This document shows, one piece after another, positions 2,127 through 13,790 of a DNA stretch of 20,219 nucleotides. Origin of the DNA: a virus; the IMG/VR virus record IMGVR_UViG_3300046543_000690, positions 1 through 20,219 of that record. One strand, given 5' to 3'. The position numbers and the translations under genes are program-made. Below the pieces are notes generated by a model, which was not told where the DNA came from, made no database searches, and was given only the letters and a program-made list of their open reading frames with translations. How positions within the stretch are numbered: position 1 is the stretch's first letter; each line of letters starts with the position of its first letter.

Positions 2127-2645
2127 ATGGCAGTGAAGATTGCACGTGGATACGCTCGAAACGAGCGCGAGGAAGCCAAGTTGCGGCAAGCCGGAATCGA
2201 AACCATCTATCGCGGCGACCGTGGCGAGACACTTGGCAAGTTCCGTATGCGCAAGGGCGAGCTACTTGGCGTCGTCAATCTGCGCGCGTTCGGGACCGCA
2301 AGGAAGGACATGGTTGCGGCAGTCAAGCAGGTCCACAAGTGGGGCGCTGTCGTCGTCAGCCTCGATAAGCTACGGTCTGACCGAGACGGTGCCGAAATGC
2401 TCGATAAAGCCTTGGTCAAGTTTGTCCCGAGTGCGGAGCACGCCAAGGAAATGCAGCGCCGTAGCGTGCTGGCCAGGACAGAGGGACGCATGTCCATGCG
2501 GGACGCGCAAAGTATCTGGCGTAACCCCAGGCTAACGACGTTAGAGGCGATTGATCTCATGCGTGGCTGGTCGGAACGGTCGGCATACGCCAAACTCGGC
2601 GCGCGTGGTGTGATCGTCGGTCGCCGGTCTAAACCGAAAGATTAA
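2127..2645 (+). CDS. Serine-recombinase-fold protein lacking catalytic residues, with C-terminal HTH
   Basis: The 172-residue product follows the resolvase pattern. It shows GYAR (8-11), AGIETIYRGD (22-31), RKGELLGVVNLRAFG (42-56), KDMVAAV and GAVVVSLD (73-80), LARTEGR (115-121), a helix-turn-helix-like W-x-NP-x-LTTLEAIDLM-x-GWS segment (131-149) and GVIVGRR near the end. Compared with gamma-delta resolvase, Arg8 is kept, but Ser10 is Glu13, Asp67-Arg68 are Arg53-Ala54, and Arg71 is Thr57. Strand exchange is therefore unlikely; a DNA-binding or regulatory role is inferred. It is the first gene of a rightward operon and is probably translated from a leaderless mRNA. The resolvase assignment is by eye and should be confirmed by profile search. 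Confidence 0.7.
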   Translation: MAVKIARGYARNEREEAKLRQAGIETIYRGDRGETLGKFRMRKGELLGVVNLRAFGTARKDMVAAVKQVHKWGAVVVSLDKLRSDRDGAEMLDKALVKFVPSAEHAKEMQRRSVLARTEGRMSMRDAQSIWRNPRLTTLEAIDLMRGWSERSAYAKLGARGVIVGRRSKPKD

Positions 2646-3003: not shown

Positions 3004-3228
3004 GTGCGCATTCCGAACCCAGAGGCAGTCAATCCCAAAGAGTTGAGCAAGACGCTTGAGCTTGCAGCCGAGTGTATGATCCGCGCGGATGGTGATCGCG
3101 ATCCTGACAGTGCGAGTAAGTTGACGGTCGAGCAGTCAATGGCCATCGCCCGCTTGCTGGTTGTTGCGGGATCAAAATTGGCATTGCAAGACCTCTTAAA
3201 TGAATTGCCTCGCCACAGGAGAGAATAA
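3004..3228 (+). CDS. Small helical phage protein (74 aa)
   Basis: The start is GTG 3004 with GGAG and a 6-nt spacer, giving MRIPNPEAVNPKELSKTLEL. The protein is helical, with two amphipathic segments (KELSKTLELAAECMI and VEQSMAIARLLVVAGSKLALQDLLNEL). A longer in-frame extension upstream to 2893 would overlap the previous gene and lacks a ribosome site. The stop TAA leads into another cassette copy that is followed only by a 7-codon frame. No domain is recognised. Confidence 0.75.
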   Translation: MRIPNPEAVNPKELSKTLELAAECMIRADGDRDPDSASKLTVEQSMAIARLLVVAGSKLALQDLLNELPRHRRE

Positions 3229-3429
3229 AGGAGCGGTTATGCGATTCGCTCCACTTCTTTGAACGCAATTCTGTATCAAAATGACGCGCCGTTTGTTTGA
3301 TCAATTTTCCGAATTATCCAGCATAATCATATATTTAAGTGAATTGATAAAGCCACCTGATCAATGTGTTACCATTGAACAATATCAAAGACTTAGCGGC
3401 AATTATGACGGAAATCCACTGATACATGT
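3229..3429. other. AT-rich gap with an orphan cassette and no accepted gene
   Basis: A start cassette (AATAAAGGAGCGGTTATG) is followed by only seven codons, MRFAPLL-stop (3239-3262). GGAGCG (3230-3235) and CGCTCC (3247-3252) form a 6-bp inverted repeat followed by ACTTCTTT, so a weak terminator is possible. From 3263 the base composition turns AT-rich. A rightward frame from 3281 (MTRRLFDQFSEL...) would run into and antisense to the integrase end; it has no ribosome site and I do not accept it. A stretch at 3361-3398 resembles 13532-13569. An integrase attachment site could lie here, but nothing identifies it. Confidence 0.45.
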
Positions 3430-4353
3430 TTACGGCTTGTTCTTGAGATTCTGGTTGAACTGCACAACATCCGCCGGCTTGCGCAGCGTCCGCACCGCCT
3501 CGAGCGCGTTCTCCCGCTGCTCCGCGCGCCGGCAATAGCGATGCACCATGATCGGGCTCATCCCCACCATGTCGGCGATCAGCGGCTCCCGCAGGTTCTT
3601 GCGGCGCAGCCGGATCACCGCGGTCGATCGCAGCCCGTGGAAGCTCAAGCCCAACCGCTCGTGCTCGCCGAGTGCCGGCATGGAGGCTCGCACCCGGTAC
3701 CACTGCACGCTCAATTGATTGCGGGTGTACGCCTCACCGTCGCGCTTGGTCACCAGCGGAGCGGCCGGCGTGCCCCGGGGCCAGCTGGCGATCGCCGCCT
3801 CGAGCTCGTCGGTCATCGGAATCCAGAGAATTTTTCCGGTTTTTTGCTGGCGCACATTGATGCCGGGAACCCCGTCATAGGTCTCGATATCGCCCCACCG
3901 CATCTTGATCAGATCCGATGCCCGCTGCCCGGTGTTCGCGCCAAGGGTGATCAGGCGGGCCAGATCCGGGCGTGGGTAAGCCAGAACGCGCTCGGCGACC
4001 TCAACATGCACATCCGACCAAGGCTCATGGGCGCCGTCGCTGGCGAGCGTCTTGACCCCGCGCATCATCTCCGGCGGCAAAAAATCTTCGACCACGGCCC
4101 ATTTGTGCAGTGCGAGCAACGCCACCTTGGCGCACCGCTGCTGGCCCGGTCGATCGCTAAAACCGTTGAGGTATCCCTGGATCAGCTTGGGCCGCAGGGT
4201 CGCCACATCGAAGCGGTCGAGCGCTGCTACGGCGATCTCGAGGAGTCTGGAATAGCTATTCTTCGTGCTGGTCGCCAGGTTCCGGAAGTGCGGGCTGGCG
4301 ATGTATTCGCGGACGACCGCGCCGAATGTCTTTTCGTATTTCACGGACGACAT
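3430..4353 (-). CDS. int: Tyrosine integrase
   Basis: This phage-type tyrosine recombinase of 307 residues would catalyse integration at an attachment site. An N-terminal SAM-like DNA-binding region (about 8-100) is followed by the catalytic domain. The active-site residues seen are Arg144 (TGQRASD), Lys171 (QQKTGK), His239 and Arg242 (FHGLR), and Tyr273 (VHRYCRR). The usual second His/Trp position is Met265 (MVGMS), an unusual replacement. ATG 4353 is preferred over an upstream start because GGAG stands 6 nt before it. The upstream sequence includes the repeated AACCTGCGAGG motif. It is the last gene of the leftward early operon, as expected for lysogeny functions, and its N-terminal coding region overlaps the preceding gene. 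Confidence 0.93.
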   Translation of the reverse strand: MSSVKYEKTFGAVVREYIASPHFRNLATSTKNSYSRLLEIAVAALDRFDVATLRPKLIQGYLNGFSDRPGQQRCAKVALLALHKWAVVEDFLPPEMMRGVKTLASDGAHEPWSDVHVEVAERVLAYPRPDLARLITLGANTGQRASDLIKMRWGDIETYDGVPGINVRQQKTGKILWIPMTDELEAAIASWPRGTPAAPLVTKRDGEAYTRNQLSVQWYRVRASMPALGEHERLGLSFHGLRSTAVIRLRRKNLREPLIADMVGMSPIMVHRYCRRAEQRENALEAVRTLRKPADVVQFNQNLKNKP

Positions 4354-4504
4354 CTTCAACTCCCTCGCAGGTTGCCACGTCAGCACAGATCAGGCGGTAA
4401 AGATAGTTGGAAAGCGACCGCCCATCCGCCGCGGCTCGCATTTCGAGCGCGGCCCGAATCTCGGGCGGCACATGAGCTACGACGGGGGTTCGAGCGGTCA
4501 CCAC
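4256..4504 (-). CDS. Ribbon-helix-helix (Arc/CopG-like) protein
   Basis: The N-terminal 45 residues fit a ribbon-helix-helix domain: the strand TPVVAHVPPEIRAALE, then RAAADGRSLSNYLYRLI. The conserved GRSLSNYL turn is typical of Arc/MetJ DNA-binding dimers. The Arg-rich C-terminal tail (RKDIRRGRPRIHRQ) is encoded in the 98 bp that overlap the integrase start in another frame. Two adjacent GTG starts are possible: 4504, or 4501, which gives a GTGA overlap with the upstream stop. Next to an integrase it could act as an excisionase or integrase regulator; this is inferred from position only. Confidence 0.8.
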   Translation of the reverse strand: MVTARTPVVAHVPPEIRAALEMRAAADGRSLSNYLYRLICADVATCEGVEDVVREIRKDIRRGRPRIHRQPALPEPGDQHEE

Positions 4505-7409: not shown

Positions 7410-8381
7410 CTACTCTGCGGCTTGCTGGACTGGCTGCGGCCGGACGAAACGCGGAAACGTCTCGTTGACCTTCAAGGTGATCTTCTTCACTGGCTCCTGA
7501 TTGATCCAGCTATTGAAGCCCTTGATGACGATGCCAAGGATCTGGTGCTTCTGCATCTGCTCCTTGCTGTTTGCATCCTCAGCCAGCGCCCTTTGCAGAG
7601 CAATGATGGCCGATCCGTCTTCGGCGTCATCGTTACGACGCCCGAGTTCGTTCATGAACTCGTCGAGAACGTCCTCGCCGTGCAGCTCAATAATCTGGTA
7701 CGCCACAAACGATGCGACGTCCTTCTTATCGATCACTGCGGCGGCTGACTTGTGCTCACCAACCATCAAGCGGGTGGCGAGACGCAGGTTGTCGTGTTGC
7801 TGCAGATATTCCACGACTTCGATCGGCGACACCTTGTCGAGCGAGCGCTTGGTGCTTGCCGTATAAAGTCCGTGCTCAAAATGCATTGCCATCGACACGA
7901 CGGTCGACAGCAACTTCGACAGGCCGTTCAGACCAGCCGTTGCGAGAGCGTCAGCCGCGGTGCGTGTCTTGCCGTTGTCGATGAAGGCAAACACGTGCGG
8001 ATCTGCCGGCACGTCACCAATCAAGTAGGTCGGGAACGAAGCACCGGAGAGATACGAGGCCCACAACCTGTGGCCCGCATCAATCAGCTTGCCGTCCGTG
8101 TCAAACAGAACTGCTTGGCCGGTTTGCTTCCACTTCCCGCCGAGCATCTGACGGGCGTAGTACCTCACCGTTGGCAGTGCTGCTTTACGGTTGGCTCCGA
8201 TCGGATTGCGCAGGAGCATTCCTTCGGCAATCTCCGGTGTGATAACCGTCCATCGATTGCTGAGATTGAGATTGCGCGGCTCCTGAGTAGGACGCCAATC
8301 TTCGAAGTCCGCCATCGTCTTCTGGAACGCATTGACGCTGGCGGTTTGCAGATCGAGTGCAAATTTAGGTGTCCAAGACAT
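7410..8381 (-). CDS. ParB/sulfiredoxin-fold-like phage protein (323 aa)
   Basis: The core pattern WTVITPEIAEGMLLRN, then VRYYARQMLGGKW, GKLIDAGHRL (98-106) and FAFIDNGKTRTAAD (131-144) matches a large phage family annotated as ParB-like or unknown. The DAGHRL motif stands where ParB proteins carry the CTP-binding/GERR-like segment and other family members read DGQHR. The C-terminal half is helical. ATG 8381 is chosen over upstream frames because GGAAGGGCC precedes it; that stretch resembles the start cassette of the far-left array. It is the first gene of the leftward operon under the repressor operators. It is not a canonical ParB; whether it binds CTP or DNA is unknown. Confidence 0.8.
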   Translation of the reverse strand: MSWTPKFALDLQTASVNAFQKTMADFEDWRPTQEPRNLNLSNRWTVITPEIAEGMLLRNPIGANRKAALPTVRYYARQMLGGKWKQTGQAVLFDTDGKLIDAGHRLWASYLSGASFPTYLIGDVPADPHVFAFIDNGKTRTAADALATAGLNGLSKLLSTVVSMAMHFEHGLYTASTKRSLDKVSPIEVVEYLQQHDNLRLATRLMVGEHKSAAAVIDKKDVASFVAYQIIELHGEDVLDEFMNELGRRNDDAEDGSAIIALQRALAEDANSKEQMQKHQILGIVIKGFNSWINQEPVKKITLKVNETFPRFVRPQPVQQAAE

Positions 8382-8455
8382 TGCTAGTAGGCCCTTCCTA
8401 GGCCGGTTTTGTCGCGCTCCCGGATCGGGGTGATGGGAGCAGGTCCGACGCACAC

Positions 8456-8485
8456 ACTCTAAAATCACTCTGAGTGAGCCGTCAA
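8456..8485 (-). promoter_or_regulatory. Leftward early promoter (PL-like)
   Basis: TTGACG (8485-8480) and TAGAGT (8461-8456) are 18 bp apart on the minus strand. A TCAC-N5-GTGA operator lies exactly in the spacer, so bound repressor would block polymerase. Transcription would run into the ParB-like gene, with a leader of about 70 nt. Confidence 0.55.
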
Positions 8486-8507
8486 GCCACAAAATCACTC
8501 CCTGTGA
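8465..8507. promoter_or_regulatory. Two repressor operators, TCAC-N5-GTGA
   Basis: TCACTCTGAGTGA (8465-8477) and TCACTCCCTGTGA (8495-8507) share the 4-bp arms and spacing, and their starts are 30 bp apart (about three helical turns). The first is a perfect 6-bp-arm palindrome. They match the two operators around the repressor/cro promoters. Confidence 0.75.
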
Positions 8508-8600
8508 ATTTCGATGAAAGATTTACGAAAGGGGGTTGCGTGCAGGCAACACGCATGCATCAATCAACTTCGTTCCGGTCACAGTGGGAGGCGACAGGAA

Positions 8601-8795
8601 ATGAAATCGTCCAGAAAAAACAACGACGAGATGTTGCGTCGCGTGGCAATCCAGATCGTCGCCCAGCTGCCCAGCAACAATGGCGACGCCAAAAAGATAT
8701 TGGAGCTGGCCGAGCGCCTGCTCGAAAGGGTCGAGGAAAAGCGTCCTTGGAAGCGACCGGCTTCGAAGCTCAGCGTTTGCGACGTCGCGGCTTAG
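8601..8795 (+). CDS. Small helical protein next to the repressor (64 aa)
   Basis: The product MKSSRKNNDEMLRRVAIQIV is basic and helical, with KKILELAERLLERVEEKRPWKRP forming a likely coiled segment. ATG 8601 has GGGAGG upstream with a spacer of about 9 nt. A longer in-frame start at 8514 would add an unsupported extension. The 3-prime end overlaps the repressor gene end by 26 bp (convergent). It lies where lambda carries rex-like genes; no family is recognised. Its promoter is probably near the 8495-8507 operator but is not clearly visible. Confidence 0.6.
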   Translation: MKSSRKNNDEMLRRVAIQIVAQLPSNNGDAKKILELAERLLERVEEKRPWKRPASKLSVCDVAA

Positions 8796-9144
8796 GCGGG
8801 TTCATTTCCTCGATCAGTTGTACTTCCCGCACTGGTCCTTTGAGCCAATGCGGTAGCGAGTCGAAATCGCCTTCGATGAAATAGGCCCAGGTGGCGGAGA
8901 AAAACGCCACCAGCTTGCCGATGACGGCCGTTGACATGCTGCGCTGGCCGGTTTCGTAATAGGAAATCATATTTGGATTTACGCCAATGATCGGAGCTAG
9001 ATGCTTTTGTTCTAGTCCCTTGGCAAGTCGTAGGTACTTCAGTCTTTTTCCCTGTTCGACCTGGAGCATTAGGCTCTCCGAGGATCTACGCTTACGCGGT
9101 ATTTTTTGCTTGGCCGGTTTTGGCTTTCTTCGGTTGCCCGACAT
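8770..9144 (-). CDS. XRE-family repressor (CI-like)
   Basis: After a basic N-terminal tail (KPKPAKQKIPRKRRSSES), the HTH domain runs from about residue 30 to 85: GKRLKYLRLAKGLEQKHLAP, IIGVNPNMISYYETGQRSM and VIGKLVAFF. This is the classical XRE pattern with the recognition helix at NPNMISYYE. No cleavage or peptidase domain is present; the C terminus is a short basic tail PPKPRRRKR. It is divergent from the Cro-like gene, with two operators in between, and is probably autoregulated, since one operator overlaps its predicted -10. No Shine-Dalgarno is clear. Repressor rather than activator is inferred from context. Confidence 0.85.
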   Translation of the reverse strand: MSGNRRKPKPAKQKIPRKRRSSESLMLQVEQGKRLKYLRLAKGLEQKHLAPIIGVNPNMISYYETGQRSMSTAVIGKLVAFFSATWAYFIEGDFDSLPHWLKGPVREVQLIEEMNPPKPRRRKR

Positions 9145-9165
9145 CTGGAACGATTTCCAACTACA

Positions 9166-9178
9166 TCACATTACGTGA
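9166..9178. promoter_or_regulatory. Repressor operator at the repressor promoter
   Basis: TCACATTACGTGA fits TCAC-N5-GTGA, extended by CA/TG to CATCAC...GTGATG. It overlaps a possible leftward -10 (TAATGT, with TGGACG 17 bp upstream), which fits autoregulation of the repressor. The promoter boxes are weak. Confidence 0.6.
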
Positions 9179-9227
9179 TGGAGAGGTATACGTCCACTGC
9201 AATTTTTCCCATACGCGCAGAAATCAC

Positions 9228-9256
9228 TTGCGGCTACTCACCCACAGTGATTTAAA
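9228..9256 (+). promoter_or_regulatory. Rightward early promoter with embedded operator (PR-like)
   Basis: TTGCGG (9228-9233) and TTTAAA (9251-9256) are 17 bp apart. The operator TCACCCACAGTGA (9238-9250) fills the spacer. The predicted transcription start is at about 9263, which is the ATG of the Cro-like gene, so that mRNA is probably leaderless. Confidence 0.55.
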
Positions 9257-9262
9257 TGATGC

Positions 9263-9469
9263 ATGCGGGTCATCCGATCGATAGACGATGCAATCGAAGC
9301 GTTCGGGGGCAACCAAGCCGCCGCCAAGCGGCATGGGCTGGTTCCGCATTCCATCAGCATGTGGAAAGCGCGCGGCCAAATACCGGCTGAATACATCCTT
9401 GAGCTCGTCCAAATGGGGTTCAAGGTCGATGTGCAGGCGCTGCGCAATGGCAAGACGCGGCAATCCTGA
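9263..9469 (+). CDS. Cro-like HTH protein
   Basis: The 68-residue product MRVIRSIDDAIEAFGGNQAA contains a compact HTH: AIEAFGGNQAAAKRHGLVPHSISMWKARGQIPAEYILEL. This is the YdaS/Cro-type pattern, with the recognition helix at HSISMWKARG. It is the first gene of the rightward operon and divergent from the XRE repressor, which is the usual position for a lytic-switch repressor. No Shine-Dalgarno is present, matching a leaderless start. Its end overlaps the nuclease start by 23 bp. Confidence 0.85.
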   Translation: MRVIRSIDDAIEAFGGNQAAAKRHGLVPHSISMWKARGQIPAEYILELVQMGFKVDVQALRNGKTRQS

Positions 9470-9901: not shown

Positions 9902-10599
9902 TGCCCGAGATGATCACGATTGCCATGCTCCGTAAGGCGGGTGCAAGCGATGCGCTGATCGTGCGCGTGCTCGAGCTAGAGCAACAAGAGTTGCTCAAAG
10001 AACAGGAAGAGGAGCTTGAGGCACATCGTGAACGAAAAAGGATAAACAAGAAAAATCAACGATTGGGTCACCGCATGTCACCGGATGTCACCAGTGTCAC
10101 CGGTGACACCGGTGACATTGTTTCTTCTTCTTCTCCCCCTTCTTCTTCTCCCCCCACACCCCCCTTAATAACTACCCCTTCTTCATCATCATCTCGCTCT
10201 GATACGCGCGCGCGTGCTTCGCGCTTGCAATTCGATTGGAAGCCTTCGGAAGTAGATTTTGAATACGCACACAGCAAAGGGTTACCCCATGCTCGGATAG
10301 CGACTGAGGGCGAGAAGTTTCGCAATTACTGGACAGCAAAGGCCGGAAGAGACGCCACCAAAATCGATTGGTCGCGCACCTGGCAAAACTGGATTCTCAA
10401 TGCAATCAGCAACGGAGGCAATGGCCATGGGCGCGGTCAAAAACCAACTCTTGCCGAGCAAGCACTGGAACTTGCCGCAGAAGCTCGACAGCGGGAAATT
10501 GAGGCAGGCCTTATCCGACCGGATGAGCCTGTCGGAGGCGCTGATGACGGTCAGCAAATTGATCTCGACCTATCCGAATGGCGGCGGTCAGGCGGGTAA
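9901..10599 (+). CDS. Replication initiator-like protein (O/DnaT-type)
   Basis: The 232-residue protein has three parts. The N-terminal helix region (MPEMITIAMLRKAGAS...) ends in a long Glu/Arg coiled segment. The low-complexity linker SVTGDTGDIVSSSSPPSSSP carries the encoded iterons. The C-terminal domain has LQFDWKPSEVDFEYAHSKG, EGEKFRNYWTAKAG, and KIDWSRTWQNWI, the signature of phage replication proteins with a DnaT-like DNA-binding domain. It would bind the origin and help load helicase. ATG 9901 overlaps the previous stop. The next gene starts inside its 3-prime end. Confidence 0.8.
   Translation: MPEMITIAMLRKAGASDALIVRVLELEQQELLKEQEEELEAHRERKRINKKNQRLGHRMSPDVTSVTGDTGDIVSSSSPPSSSPPTPPLITTPSSSSSRSDTRARASRLQFDWKPSEVDFEYAHSKGLPHARIATEGEKFRNYWTAKAGRDATKIDWSRTWQNWILNAISNGGNGHGRGQKPTLAEQALELAAEARQREIEAGLIRPDEPVGGADDGQQIDLDLSEWRRSGG
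10067..10200. repeat. Iterons and pyrimidine tract inside the replication gene (candidate origin)
   Basis: GTCACC occurs at 10067, 10077, 10087 and 10096 (spacing 10, 10, 9). It is followed by the palindrome GTCACCGGTGAC (10096-10107) and another ACCGGTGAC. Directly after it, 10118-10195 is almost all pyrimidine on the plus strand. Phased repeats inside the initiator gene recall the lambda origin inside gene O. Origin activity is inferred. Confidence 0.6.
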
Positions 10600-11035
10600 G
10601 GGCTACATGGGCGCATTGGCGGCGGTGCTGGCGTCATATCCAACGCGGATTGCGATCGCGGTGGCGGATCCGGTGTATGGGGTGCCGCGCGAATGCAAGT
10701 TTCTGCCGACGCCGGCGGATGTGATTGCCTGGTGCGAGCGTGAGCTTGCTGAGATGCGCAGACCGGTTGATCACCTCGACCGGCTCGAGAAATTGCGCGA
10801 GGAGGCAAAGCAGCGCGAGAGCGCAGATGCGGAATGGCAGAAGGCACGTATGCTGCGCCTTCCATTGGATGCATTGCGCGCCAAGCACGGACCGAATTGG
10901 GGCATCAAGGACTTGCTGGCGCCTTCGAAGCGGCAGGTACCATGGGACAAGCAGGCGCCGGAATGGGCGGATATTCGGATCAGCGACGAGCTGAAGCAAA
11001 TAATCGCCCCACCGCCGGATCCGAGCGATTTTTAA
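10544..11035 (+). CDS. Replication-associated phage protein (helicase-loader position)
   Basis: The product MTVSKLISTYPNGGGQAGKG has the phage pattern GYMGALAAVLASYP, VADPVYGVPRECKFLPTPADV and WCERELAEM, then a charged coiled region and a C-terminal RISDELKQIIAPPPDPSDF. Proteins of this pattern follow O-like genes and are probably helicase loaders or cofactors, but I see no Walker motif, so the role is inferred from position. ATG 10544 has GGAGG with a 5-nt spacer and overlaps the initiator gene by 56 bp; ATG 10523 (MSLSEAL) is an alternative with no ribosome site. Confidence 0.7.
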   Translation: MTVSKLISTYPNGGGQAGKGYMGALAAVLASYPTRIAIAVADPVYGVPRECKFLPTPADVIAWCERELAEMRRPVDHLDRLEKLREEAKQRESADAEWQKARMLRLPLDALRAKHGPNWGIKDLLAPSKRQVPWDKQAPEWADIRISDELKQIIAPPPDPSDF

Positions 11036-12069: not shown

Positions 12070-12135
12070 CGCCCGGTTTTTCCCTCGCAGGTTTTACCGG
12101 GCGTGGCACGGCCAGGGGCTTGCAGGCCCCTGGCC
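12070..12135. other. Two hairpins in the leader of the small XRE gene
   Basis: Hairpin one is CGCCCGGT (12070-12077) with ACCGGGCG (12096-12103); its loop contains CCTCGCAGG (12083-12091). Hairpin two is a perfect 10-bp stem, GGCCAGGGGC (12110-12119) with GCCCCTGGCC (12126-12135), and loop TTGCAG. The second lies 15 bp after the stop of the upstream leftward gene. Confidence 0.65.
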
Positions 12136-12149
12136 ACATCGTGCAGATT

Positions 12150-12263
12150 TTATTTTCGTACCCTCTGGCGTATCCAGTTGAGCAGCCACAGGATGACCAG
12201 AAATTGCCACGCGAAGTCCGGGCCAAACCAGCTGACAATGTCGAATCCATCAAGCATGTTCAT
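12150..12263 (-). CDS. Small membrane protein (37 aa)
   Basis: MNMLDGFDIVSWFGPDFAWQ is followed by FLVILWLLNWIRQRVRK: one hydrophobic helix with a strongly positive C-terminal end, probably membrane-inserted. ATG 12263 overlaps the upstream TGA as ATGA. An in-frame ATG two codons on (12257) has AGGGA 6 nt upstream and may be used instead. It is followed by a strong hairpin with the TTGCAG loop. The size and shape fit small toxin, holin or spanin-like proteins, but nothing decides between them. Confidence 0.65.
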   Translation of the reverse strand: MNMLDGFDIVSWFGPDFAWQFLVILWLLNWIRQRVRK

Positions 12264-12418
12264 TCCCTGAAAAGCGGTGGCATGAGGCGGCAGATATCGA
12301 CTGTCACATTGTGGATTGGGGCTTCGGCTTTGACGTAGTGCAGTGCCTCGTCCCAATCTGAGAACAGGCCGATTACGCTTGGCGGTTCGTCGGGATAGCT
12401 GAAAACGATGCACCACAT
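12260..12418 (-). CDS. Small soluble protein (52 aa)
   Basis: The product MWCIVFSYPDEPPSVIGLFS continues DWDEALHYVKAEAPIHNVTV and ends LMPPLFRE. The strand/helix/strand pattern with DWDEALHYVK looks like a compact alpha-beta fold. ATG 12418 is preceded by GGAGGG with a 7-nt spacer. The upstream stop TGA lies just before it (TGACATG), and its own stop overlaps the next ATG. It is too short for many gene callers, but the coupling on both sides and good composition support it. The family is unknown. Confidence 0.72.
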   Translation of the reverse strand: MWCIVFSYPDEPPSVIGLFSDWDEALHYVKAEAPIHNVTVDICRLMPPLFRE

Positions 12419-12419
12419 G

Positions 12420-12560
12420 TCATTGCCCTCCTGCCAGGCAAGCGCACCACACCAGCAGCACGCTCACGAATGCGGCGATGGCCAGGAATCCGAGCAAGTC
12501 TTCAGCGTCGAGATCGAGCAGGGACGCGAGCAGAAAGCGACGATTGCGGCGTGTAGCCAT
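12420..12560 (-). CDS. Small membrane protein (46 aa)
   Basis: MATRRNRRFLLASLLDLDAE, a positive N terminus, is followed by one hydrophobic segment DLLGFLAIAAFVSVLLVWCACLAGG. The likely topology is N-terminus inside with a single span. ATG 12560 is preceded by GCGAGG with a 5-nt spacer, and that Shine-Dalgarno is part of the repeated AACCTGCGAGG motif. The stop leads directly into the next start. It forms, with the 37-residue protein two genes on, a pair of small membrane proteins in one cassette. Confidence 0.68.
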   Translation of the reverse strand: MATRRNRRFLLASLLDLDAEDLLGFLAIAAFVSVLLVWCACLAGGQ

Positions 12561-12565
12561 GGTAA

Positions 12566-12646
12566 CCTCGCAGGTTTGGGGACATCCCTTGCAGGGGATG
12601 CGGGGTCGACGTGATCCCGTGTAAGCCGCGATCGCACCGCGACTTA
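12566..12646. other. CCTCGCAGG motif and two hairpins between leftward genes
   Basis: After the CCTCGCAGG motif (12566-12574) stands CATCCC (12583-12588) with GGGATG (12595-12600) and loop TTGCAG, the same loop as at 12120-12125. A third hairpin, TAAGCCGCG (12622-12630) with CGCGACTTA (12638-12646), has one mismatch (G-U in the leftward RNA). No U-run follows. Confidence 0.6.
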
Positions 12647-12653
12647 GGCTGGA

Positions 12654-12863
12654 TCAGGCAATGCGGTGCGACCACCCATTGCGCTCAATGTGGGCGCGGT
12701 ACGCGGGCCATTCGCTCGCCAGCACAAGTTGGGACTGGCCAGGACGGTATTCGCCGTCCGTCAACGAGTAGAAGTTACACATGATGTGGTGCTCGGTTTC
12801 ACCGTCGAAGGCGCCCGCATCATAGAAATGGAAATGCAGCGATTTAGCAGGAGCATAAGACAT
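12654..12863 (-). CDS. Small protein heading the leftward cassette (69 aa)
   Basis: The product MSYAPAKSLHFHFYDAGAFD has an alternating strand pattern (HFHFYDAGAFDGETEHHIMCNFYSLTD) and ends WPAYRAHIERNGWSHRIA. His-rich; a metal site is possible but unproven. The start is ATG 12863, with only a weak GCGAG upstream; the longer frame to 12956 runs back through the promoter and is rejected. It is the first gene of the cassette, about 50 bp downstream of a good leftward promoter. No family is recognised. Confidence 0.72.
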   Translation of the reverse strand: MSYAPAKSLHFHFYDAGAFDGETEHHIMCNFYSLTDGEYRPGQSQLVLASEWPAYRAHIERNGWSHRIA

Positions 12864-12912
12864 TGGATTGTCTCGCGGTTTGTGTGGGTGGCGTTGCAGG
12901 GCCAGTGATTGC

Positions 12913-12941
12913 AATATGCACGATGTGCAGTGTGTTGGCAA
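12913..12941 (-). promoter_or_regulatory. Leftward promoter of the small-gene cassette, with palindrome
   Basis: TTGCCA (12941-12936) and CATATT (12918-12913) are 17 bp apart. The palindrome TGCACGATGTGCA (12917-12929) overlaps the spacer and -10, as an operator would. GCAATATG occurs twice, at 12911 and 12938. Further upstream, TCACAGTTACGTGA (12963-12976) resembles the immunity operator but has six central bases instead of five. Confidence 0.55.
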
Positions 12942-13012
12942 TATGTATCTGCACATTGTTCATCACAGTTACGTGAATTGATGTGGAATACAGGATAGAG
13001 AAACTTGTTCAA

Positions 13013-13141
13013 ATGGGCAGGTATAAGACGCCATTAAGGAAGTATATCAAGCGTCTTAGAGCGCGCATAATCCCTGAACCAAATTCAGGTTGTTGGCTGT
13101 GGGAGGGCGCGCATAATCGTCTGGGATACGGTTTTCGGTAA
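13013..13141 (+). pseudogene. Truncated HNH endonuclease (N-terminal part only)
   Basis: The 42-residue frame MGRYKTPLRKYIKRLRARII ends NSGCWLWEGAHNRLGYGFR and then stops. The GCWLWxGAxNxxGYG motif is the conserved N-terminal element of phage HNH homing-type endonucleases. In those the catalytic AHR...H-x-CDNP-x-CVNPxHL part would follow, but none of it is visible in any frame downstream. So the gene is broken at about 13142, where base composition also changes. Whether the short product is made is unknown; no clear Shine-Dalgarno precedes it. Confidence 0.7.
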
Positions 13142-13790
13142 TAGTTGACACCTAAGATAAACGACTGATTCGAACGCAACAATATTGCGTCTAGTCTTAT
13201 AGTCCTAGGAATAGGTAAACGATATCATGCATTTACAAGCCTATTGACAAGCCCATATCTATTGAGATCACTTTATTGATTCTGCGCGCGTTACTCTATC
13301 CTAGCTCATACACATGACATGGTTAACGCAGCCGCCAGCGTGACGCTGACGTCGACGCTCAGCCTGCCCATGAACAGCAATCATCACCACACATTATGCA
13401 CCATCAATAGCCGTTATCCTTGCCCACAATGGGCAACAATAACGCTGCGCTATGACCGATAAAATGAGCTCATTCGCAACAACACATCGCTAACGACACT
13501 TCAAGCGTAATGTGGCCGCTAACACATTAGGTCAATGTGTGTCCATCGAGTGATATCAATGAGTTGGCGAGCGCAATGCGATAAAAACGATGATTCACCA
13601 ATGGTTTTAGCAACAGACCCGGCACCCGAGGCCGGTAGGGGGAAAACCTCGGGCACCCCAGAAATTCGACCTACATCCCCTTTTTCGCGGCTGGATTTTT
13701 TCGGGACCTGGTTAGGCTATACCTACTGTAATACCATCATGATATGATATGGGTTGCATTTAAGGCGAACTATGTCTGGAGTTTGGATTG
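13142..13790. other. Long non-coding region before the late operon
   Basis: I find no credible gene in these roughly 650 bp, which are more AT-rich than the flanks. It holds two TTGACA hexamers (13145-13150, 13244-13249) without good -10 boxes. A dyad spans 13412-13444 (CGTTAT and TTGCCCA arms around CAA). Other elements are CCCGAGG/CCTCGGG at 13625-13631 and 13647-13653, ATCATGATATGAT at 13736-13748, and a 38-bp stretch (13532-13569) similar to 3361-3398. A late-gene promoter is expected between about 13690 and 13780, but no box pair is convincing. Confidence 0.5.

Follow-up and report, generated by a model that had tools for sequence, protein, structure and literature searches.

The window, the whole 20,219-base virus record analysed here, carries integrase, HTH repressor, replication, terminase and portal genes. 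At 2127-2645 it holds an open reading frame that a first-pass annotation had described as a serine-recombinase fold with its key catalytic residues replaced, standing at the head of an operon and perhaps serving as a DNA-bridging repressor or synapse factor. This frame is a real gene, distantly homologous to the small serine recombinases and ending in a resolvase-type HTH; small rightward genes follow it, and small leftward genes face it across two opposed promoter-like sites. The features of the locus are as follows.

1844-2041, - strand: first divergent gene, 66 aa, a possible small winged-helix protein (weak Pfam HTH_45 match, E 0.031)
2076-2104, - strand: weaker, opposed promoter-like site TTGCAG-17-TATATT, 8/12 matches, with an extended -10 (TGC before TATATT)
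2088-2104, no strand: candidate operator over both -35 boxes, TGACTTGACTTCTGCAA, proposed from palindromes at the same place in the homologous loci L056 and L058
2092-2120, + strand: sigma-70-like promoter TTGACT-17-TATATT, 10/12 matches, with the same architecture in L058
2127-2645, + strand: predicted inactive small-serine-recombinase homologue, 172 aa, from sequence, profiles and selection against homologues; recombinase-derived domain at residues ~5-120, HTH at residues ~121-158
2660-2866, + strand: second gene of the rightward operon, 68 aa, Cys-rich, of no known family, preceded by the ribosome-binding repeat AAGATTAAAGGAG
3004-3228, + strand: small downstream gene of the rightward operon, 74 aa, GTG start, of no family, with AAGATTAAAGGAG at 2985-2997
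3430-4386, - strand: tyrosine integrase, convergent with the operon, start probably at 4353 (PHROG integrase, E 3.3e-30)

The same gene order, with leftward genes, the family gene, small rightward genes and a convergent integrase (12107-13252, - strand), is found in L058, which encodes a homologue of the 172 aa protein. In the window, a repeated stop-plus-ribosome-binding sequence, AAGATTAAAGGAG, joins one rightward small gene to the next (2638-2650, 2985-2997 and 3221-3233, + strand), and the leftward small genes carry a repeated AGGCCCG, often as AAAGGCCCGTCATG, at their junctions and starts (530, 771, 1209, 1319, 1528 and 1852, - strand). GC3 is 0.68 in the 2127-2645 gene and 0.79-0.87 in the terminase, portal and integrase genes, a difference that accessory DNA would be expected to show. 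Positions 3354-3460, just downstream of the integrase, are 88% identical to 11028-11135 of L002 and form a candidate attP region, of which a second partial copy, 49 bp long and similar to the same part of L002, lies at 13521-13569. No tRNA was found in the window. Separate from the 2127-2645 locus, an HTH repressor gene (8773-9144, - strand) and a Cro-like gene (9263-9466, + strand) lie divergently as a usual immunity region.

Single-sequence searches of Pfam, PHROGs and phage, plasmid, viral-contig and genome-contig collections returned no relatives of the 172 aa protein: Pfam gave no match even at E 10, and PHROGs gave two matches at noise level only. In the PDB, searched with the single sequence at E up to 10, the sole match was Tn3 resolvase, which aligned in the right register at E 0.45. 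An HMM of seven small serine recombinases scored the protein at 15.6 bits, above the maxima of 13.4 and 13.1 reached when its sequence was shuffled 20,000 times in each of two sets. Homologues came from scanning IMG/VR with a DNA pattern that encodes M.GW[ST]..[ST]AY..LG, a motif of the HTH; two of the three matches are members of the family: L055/L058 (43% identical) and L056 (35%). With a profile of the window protein and these two homologues, Tn3/gamma-delta resolvases took places one to six among the PDB matches (best E 0.003, 177,635 sequences). In an hhalign comparison with eight resolvases, P was 1.5e-6 and the probability 90%, and the alignment took in the HTH and ran over 135 columns; three of the eight (gamma-delta, Gin and Hin) were entered by hand, and the PDB result is independent of those three. 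The resolvase HMM by itself places the L058 protein at noise level. On these profile comparisons, of the kind the first-pass annotation had proposed, the 172 aa protein belongs by homology to the serine recombinase superfamily, at a level below Pfam gathering.

The homologues also show that the gene has been maintained. At codon positions 1, 2 and 3 the window gene has identities of 0.61, 0.62 and 0.36 with L058, and of 0.50, 0.52 and 0.27 with L056. Third positions are thus near saturation while the protein has been kept, which indicates purifying selection and not decay, and invariant residues span the entire length of the three-member alignment. The L058 homologue (7989-8816) additionally carries a fused C-terminal MUG113/T5orf172 domain (E 2.7e-12 for MUG113 and 1.7e-9 for T5orf172); no fused effector domain was found in the window or L056 protein. 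Weak tblastn matches in Sinorhizobium, Rhizobium, Proteus, Ochrobactrum and a Rhodococcus phage were rejected as chance, as they encode sensor kinases, a sugar-kinase-like protein, a methyltransferase and a transposase; L059 and L057 were likewise chance pattern matches. In phages reached by synteny through integrase and terminase relatives, neither a homologue nor a PF00239 protein was present. Scanning with an LRxFG DNA pattern recovered L056 and chance matches only, besides an inactive recombinase of a different lineage in L070. The family profile, run against 395 genomes from the phylum of G019 (Syntrophobacteraceae), found one resolvase only, L072, which is catalytically intact.

Structure prediction bears mainly on the C-terminus. 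A three-sequence AlphaFold2 model places helices at 124-131, 138-144 and 150-157 with block-mean pLDDT of 81-86, and hhalign aligns these helices with the resolvase HTH, in keeping with the terminal HTH that had been read from the sequence. Across most of the N-terminal domain pLDDT is below 50, and a single-sequence AlphaFold model of the 172 aa protein reaches a pLDDT of 40. The best Foldseek match of the model is gamma-delta resolvase 1zr2_B (E 0.18, TM 0.24, with the N-terminal domain poorly modelled). Since the N-terminal fold is not confidently predicted, its retention is argued from the sequence profiles.

Aligned with gamma-delta resolvase, the window protein has GYARNER for GYARVST (S10->E) and LRAFGT for LDRLGR (D67->R, R68->A, R71->T), so that the replacement of Ser10, Asp67, Arg68 and Arg71 by Glu, Arg, Ala and Thr had been correctly identified in the first pass. 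The scissile phosphate is contacted by R8 and R68, and proposedly also by R71 (PMC4499144). In addition, the stretch bearing D36 is deleted, and no arginine stands squarely at R45. The homologues have likewise lost S10 and LDRLGR: the LDRLGR position reads LRVFGK in L058 and LRVFGS in L056 (family consensus LR[AV]FG), R68 has become A or V and R71 has become T, K or S across the three members, and neither homologue has a serine in its S10 region, nor one at a shifted equivalent position. The GYAR motif fared differently. It is present in the window protein at the resolvase position, although outside the HMM local alignment, and does not characterise the family: in its place the homologues have RAFVLN and, where the alignment is ambiguous, RYAYVC/FRRWPV, and R8 is retained in the window protein only. 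Because GYAR is missing from both homologues, its survival in the window protein is incidental. Loss of S10 and of LDRLGR in all three members points instead to a maintained inactive family and not to a single damaged gene. As judged from sequence, strand-cleavage chemistry has been lost and the protein is probably inactive.

Upstream of the gene, the -35 box of the leftward site overlaps that of the rightward promoter, and the ATG lies 6 nt past the rightward -10, so that the mRNA is probably leaderless. The homologues have the same arrangement. L058 has TTGACA-17-TAAATT, with an ATG 7 nt downstream, facing TTGACA-17-CATATT; L056 has TTGACT-17-TACACT facing TTGACA-17-TATGTT; and the leftward promoter has 10/12 matches in each. 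Face-to-face promoters with overlapping -35 boxes thus lie directly upstream of all three family genes, each of which belongs to a different phage. Strict pairs, in which both promoters have at least 9/12 matches, occur at L056 and L058, and only three more were found in 530 kb of other loci; weak pairs like that of the window, whose leftward site has 8/12, number 84 in the same 530 kb.

At the -35 overlap, L056 has the palindrome AAGGCTTGACTTGTGTCAAAAGCCTT (4188-4213; 0 expected by chance) and L058 has GGCTTGACAGATTGTCAAGAC (7950-7970; 0.04 expected by chance), each with one copy in the stretch searched, and TGACTTGACTTCTGCAA is likewise single in the window; these counts cover incomplete contigs and use a candidate motif. 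The divergent-promoter site is weaker in the window than in L056 and L058, and its -35 region is not cleanly palindromic. Around 2060-2130 of the window no inverted repeat of at least 10 bp was found, and the symmetry there is that of the two opposed -10 boxes. Two divergent promoters with overlapping -35 boxes form a palindrome by themselves, and the palindrome therefore need not be an operator; it could also belong to a host regulator or to another phage regulator.

Several readings of this gene must be weighed. That the gene is a recombinase in decay, or resembles one by chance, would fit the failure of standard searches of Pfam, PHROG, phages and plasmids to find relatives. This reading is already contradicted by the two homologues with full-length invariant residues and protein-level selection, by the six resolvases at the head of the PDB matches and by the conserved promoter, and we regard it as highly improbable. 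A still-active recombinase, with a rearranged active site and another nucleophile, could draw on the R8 of GYAR in the window protein, on the arginine and threonine kept at the R119, R125 and T126 positions in the HMM alignment, and on a Cys near the S10 position of L056. However, S10, D67, R68 and R71 are gone in 3/3 members, R8 is lost in L058, and the family has no replacement nucleophile in common, which makes residual activity barely credible.

The L058 protein, whose fused C-terminal MUG113/T5orf172 domain is GIY-YIG-related, raises the alternative of a DNA-binding targeting domain that delivers a partner or a fused effector, such as a homing or defence factor, and a GC3 that marks an accessory gene suits this role as well. 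The window and L056 proteins, however, lack the fused domain, and the conserved divergent promoter points to regulation, so that we hold a targeting role to be unlikely. The dead recombinase might also act elsewhere than on its own promoter, either as an accessory or directionality factor of the integrase, which lies ~0.8 kb away in an order common to L058, or as a multi-site bridging or synapse protein. Serine recombinases by nature form dimers and synaptic tetramers. Yet the gene is convergent with the integrase and not co-transcribed with it, and the fused domain of L058 suits other roles. Bridging moreover needs at least two sites, and each stretch searched has only one operator-like copy. 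We consider such a role distinctly unlikely. Thus, of what the first-pass annotation had suggested, a regulator at the head of an operon is upheld by the homology, the shared loss, the selection and the conserved divergent promoter, with its palindromic -35 overlap in both homologues, whereas bridging or synapsis finds no support.

We favour, with somewhat better than even confidence, a reading in which the dead small serine recombinase acts locally, as autoregulator of a divergent pair of accessory operons. Homology, missing catalytic residues, a retained HTH and purifying selection show that its ancestor was a small serine recombinase akin to the Tn3/gamma-delta resolvases, and that the cleavage chemistry was lost while the DNA-binding architecture was kept. 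Made from the probably leaderless mRNA of a promoter that faces the leftward one, the protein would form a dimer that binds an inverted repeat of ~26 bp across both -35 boxes, and the bound dimer would then shut down, or keep in balance, both its own operon and the one opposite. Such an action would parallel that of Tn3 TnpR at res, between the divergent tnpA and tnpR genes, minus recombination. Both operons of the window are clusters of small unrecognised genes next to the integrase, so that control of prophage accessory genes is the likely output, separate from the HTH repressor region near 8773-9466.

Comparison with known systems is consistent with autoregulation. Tn3/gamma-delta resolvase (TnpR; PF00239 plus HTH_7 PF02796) resembles the window protein in size, in profile homology and in having a recombinase domain followed by an HTH. 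The two are also alike in their place between divergent promoters: Tn3 resolvase, when bound at res between tnpR and tnpA, regulates both genes, its own among them (PMC7157771). The window protein differs from it in having no catalytic serine, LDRLGR arginines, D36 loop, adjacent transposase or Pfam match. Hin/Gin-type DNA invertases are likewise phage-borne small serine recombinases and share the profile, but are catalytically intact inversion enzymes. A precedent for conversion of a recombinase to a repressor is MrpR of the Bacillus phage SPbeta, a phage protein with the tyrosine-recombinase fold that no longer recombines DNA and serves as a DNA-binding prophage repressor (PMC10516654). Whereas MrpR acts on repeated SPBRE sites, the window protein is a serine-class relative with one local operator-like site. 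Within the serine class, a phage-borne protein of L070 (reverse strand, 10259-10771; PF00239, E 8.4e-10) is also inactive by its sequence, with GYSKTK for GYARVS and LSVFGY for LDRLGR; it has an ordinary resolvase C-terminus and belongs to a different lineage. This independent case suggests that loss of serine-recombinase activity is recurrent.

The three-member family is absent from Pfam and PHROGs, and a literature search that covered few subscription journals found no catalytically dead small serine recombinase described as a phage regulator; a recombinase turned regulator, as a kind, has in MrpR a close precedent in the tyrosine class. We propose tentatively, with a little less than even confidence, that these proteins form an undescribed family of temperate-phage regulators derived from small serine recombinases, which kept the ancestral autoregulation of divergent promoters and of which one branch acquired a MUG113/T5orf172 effector. 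This reading would give an orphan family of phage proteins, unrecognised by either Pfam or PHROGs, a function. As a serine-class counterpart of MrpR, the family would show the regulatory half of a resolvase outliving its enzymatic half. If the reading is true, then together with the L070 protein it would mean that recruitment as phage transcription factors has happened repeatedly to serine recombinases, as it has to tyrosine recombinases (MrpR) and TnpB (TldR).
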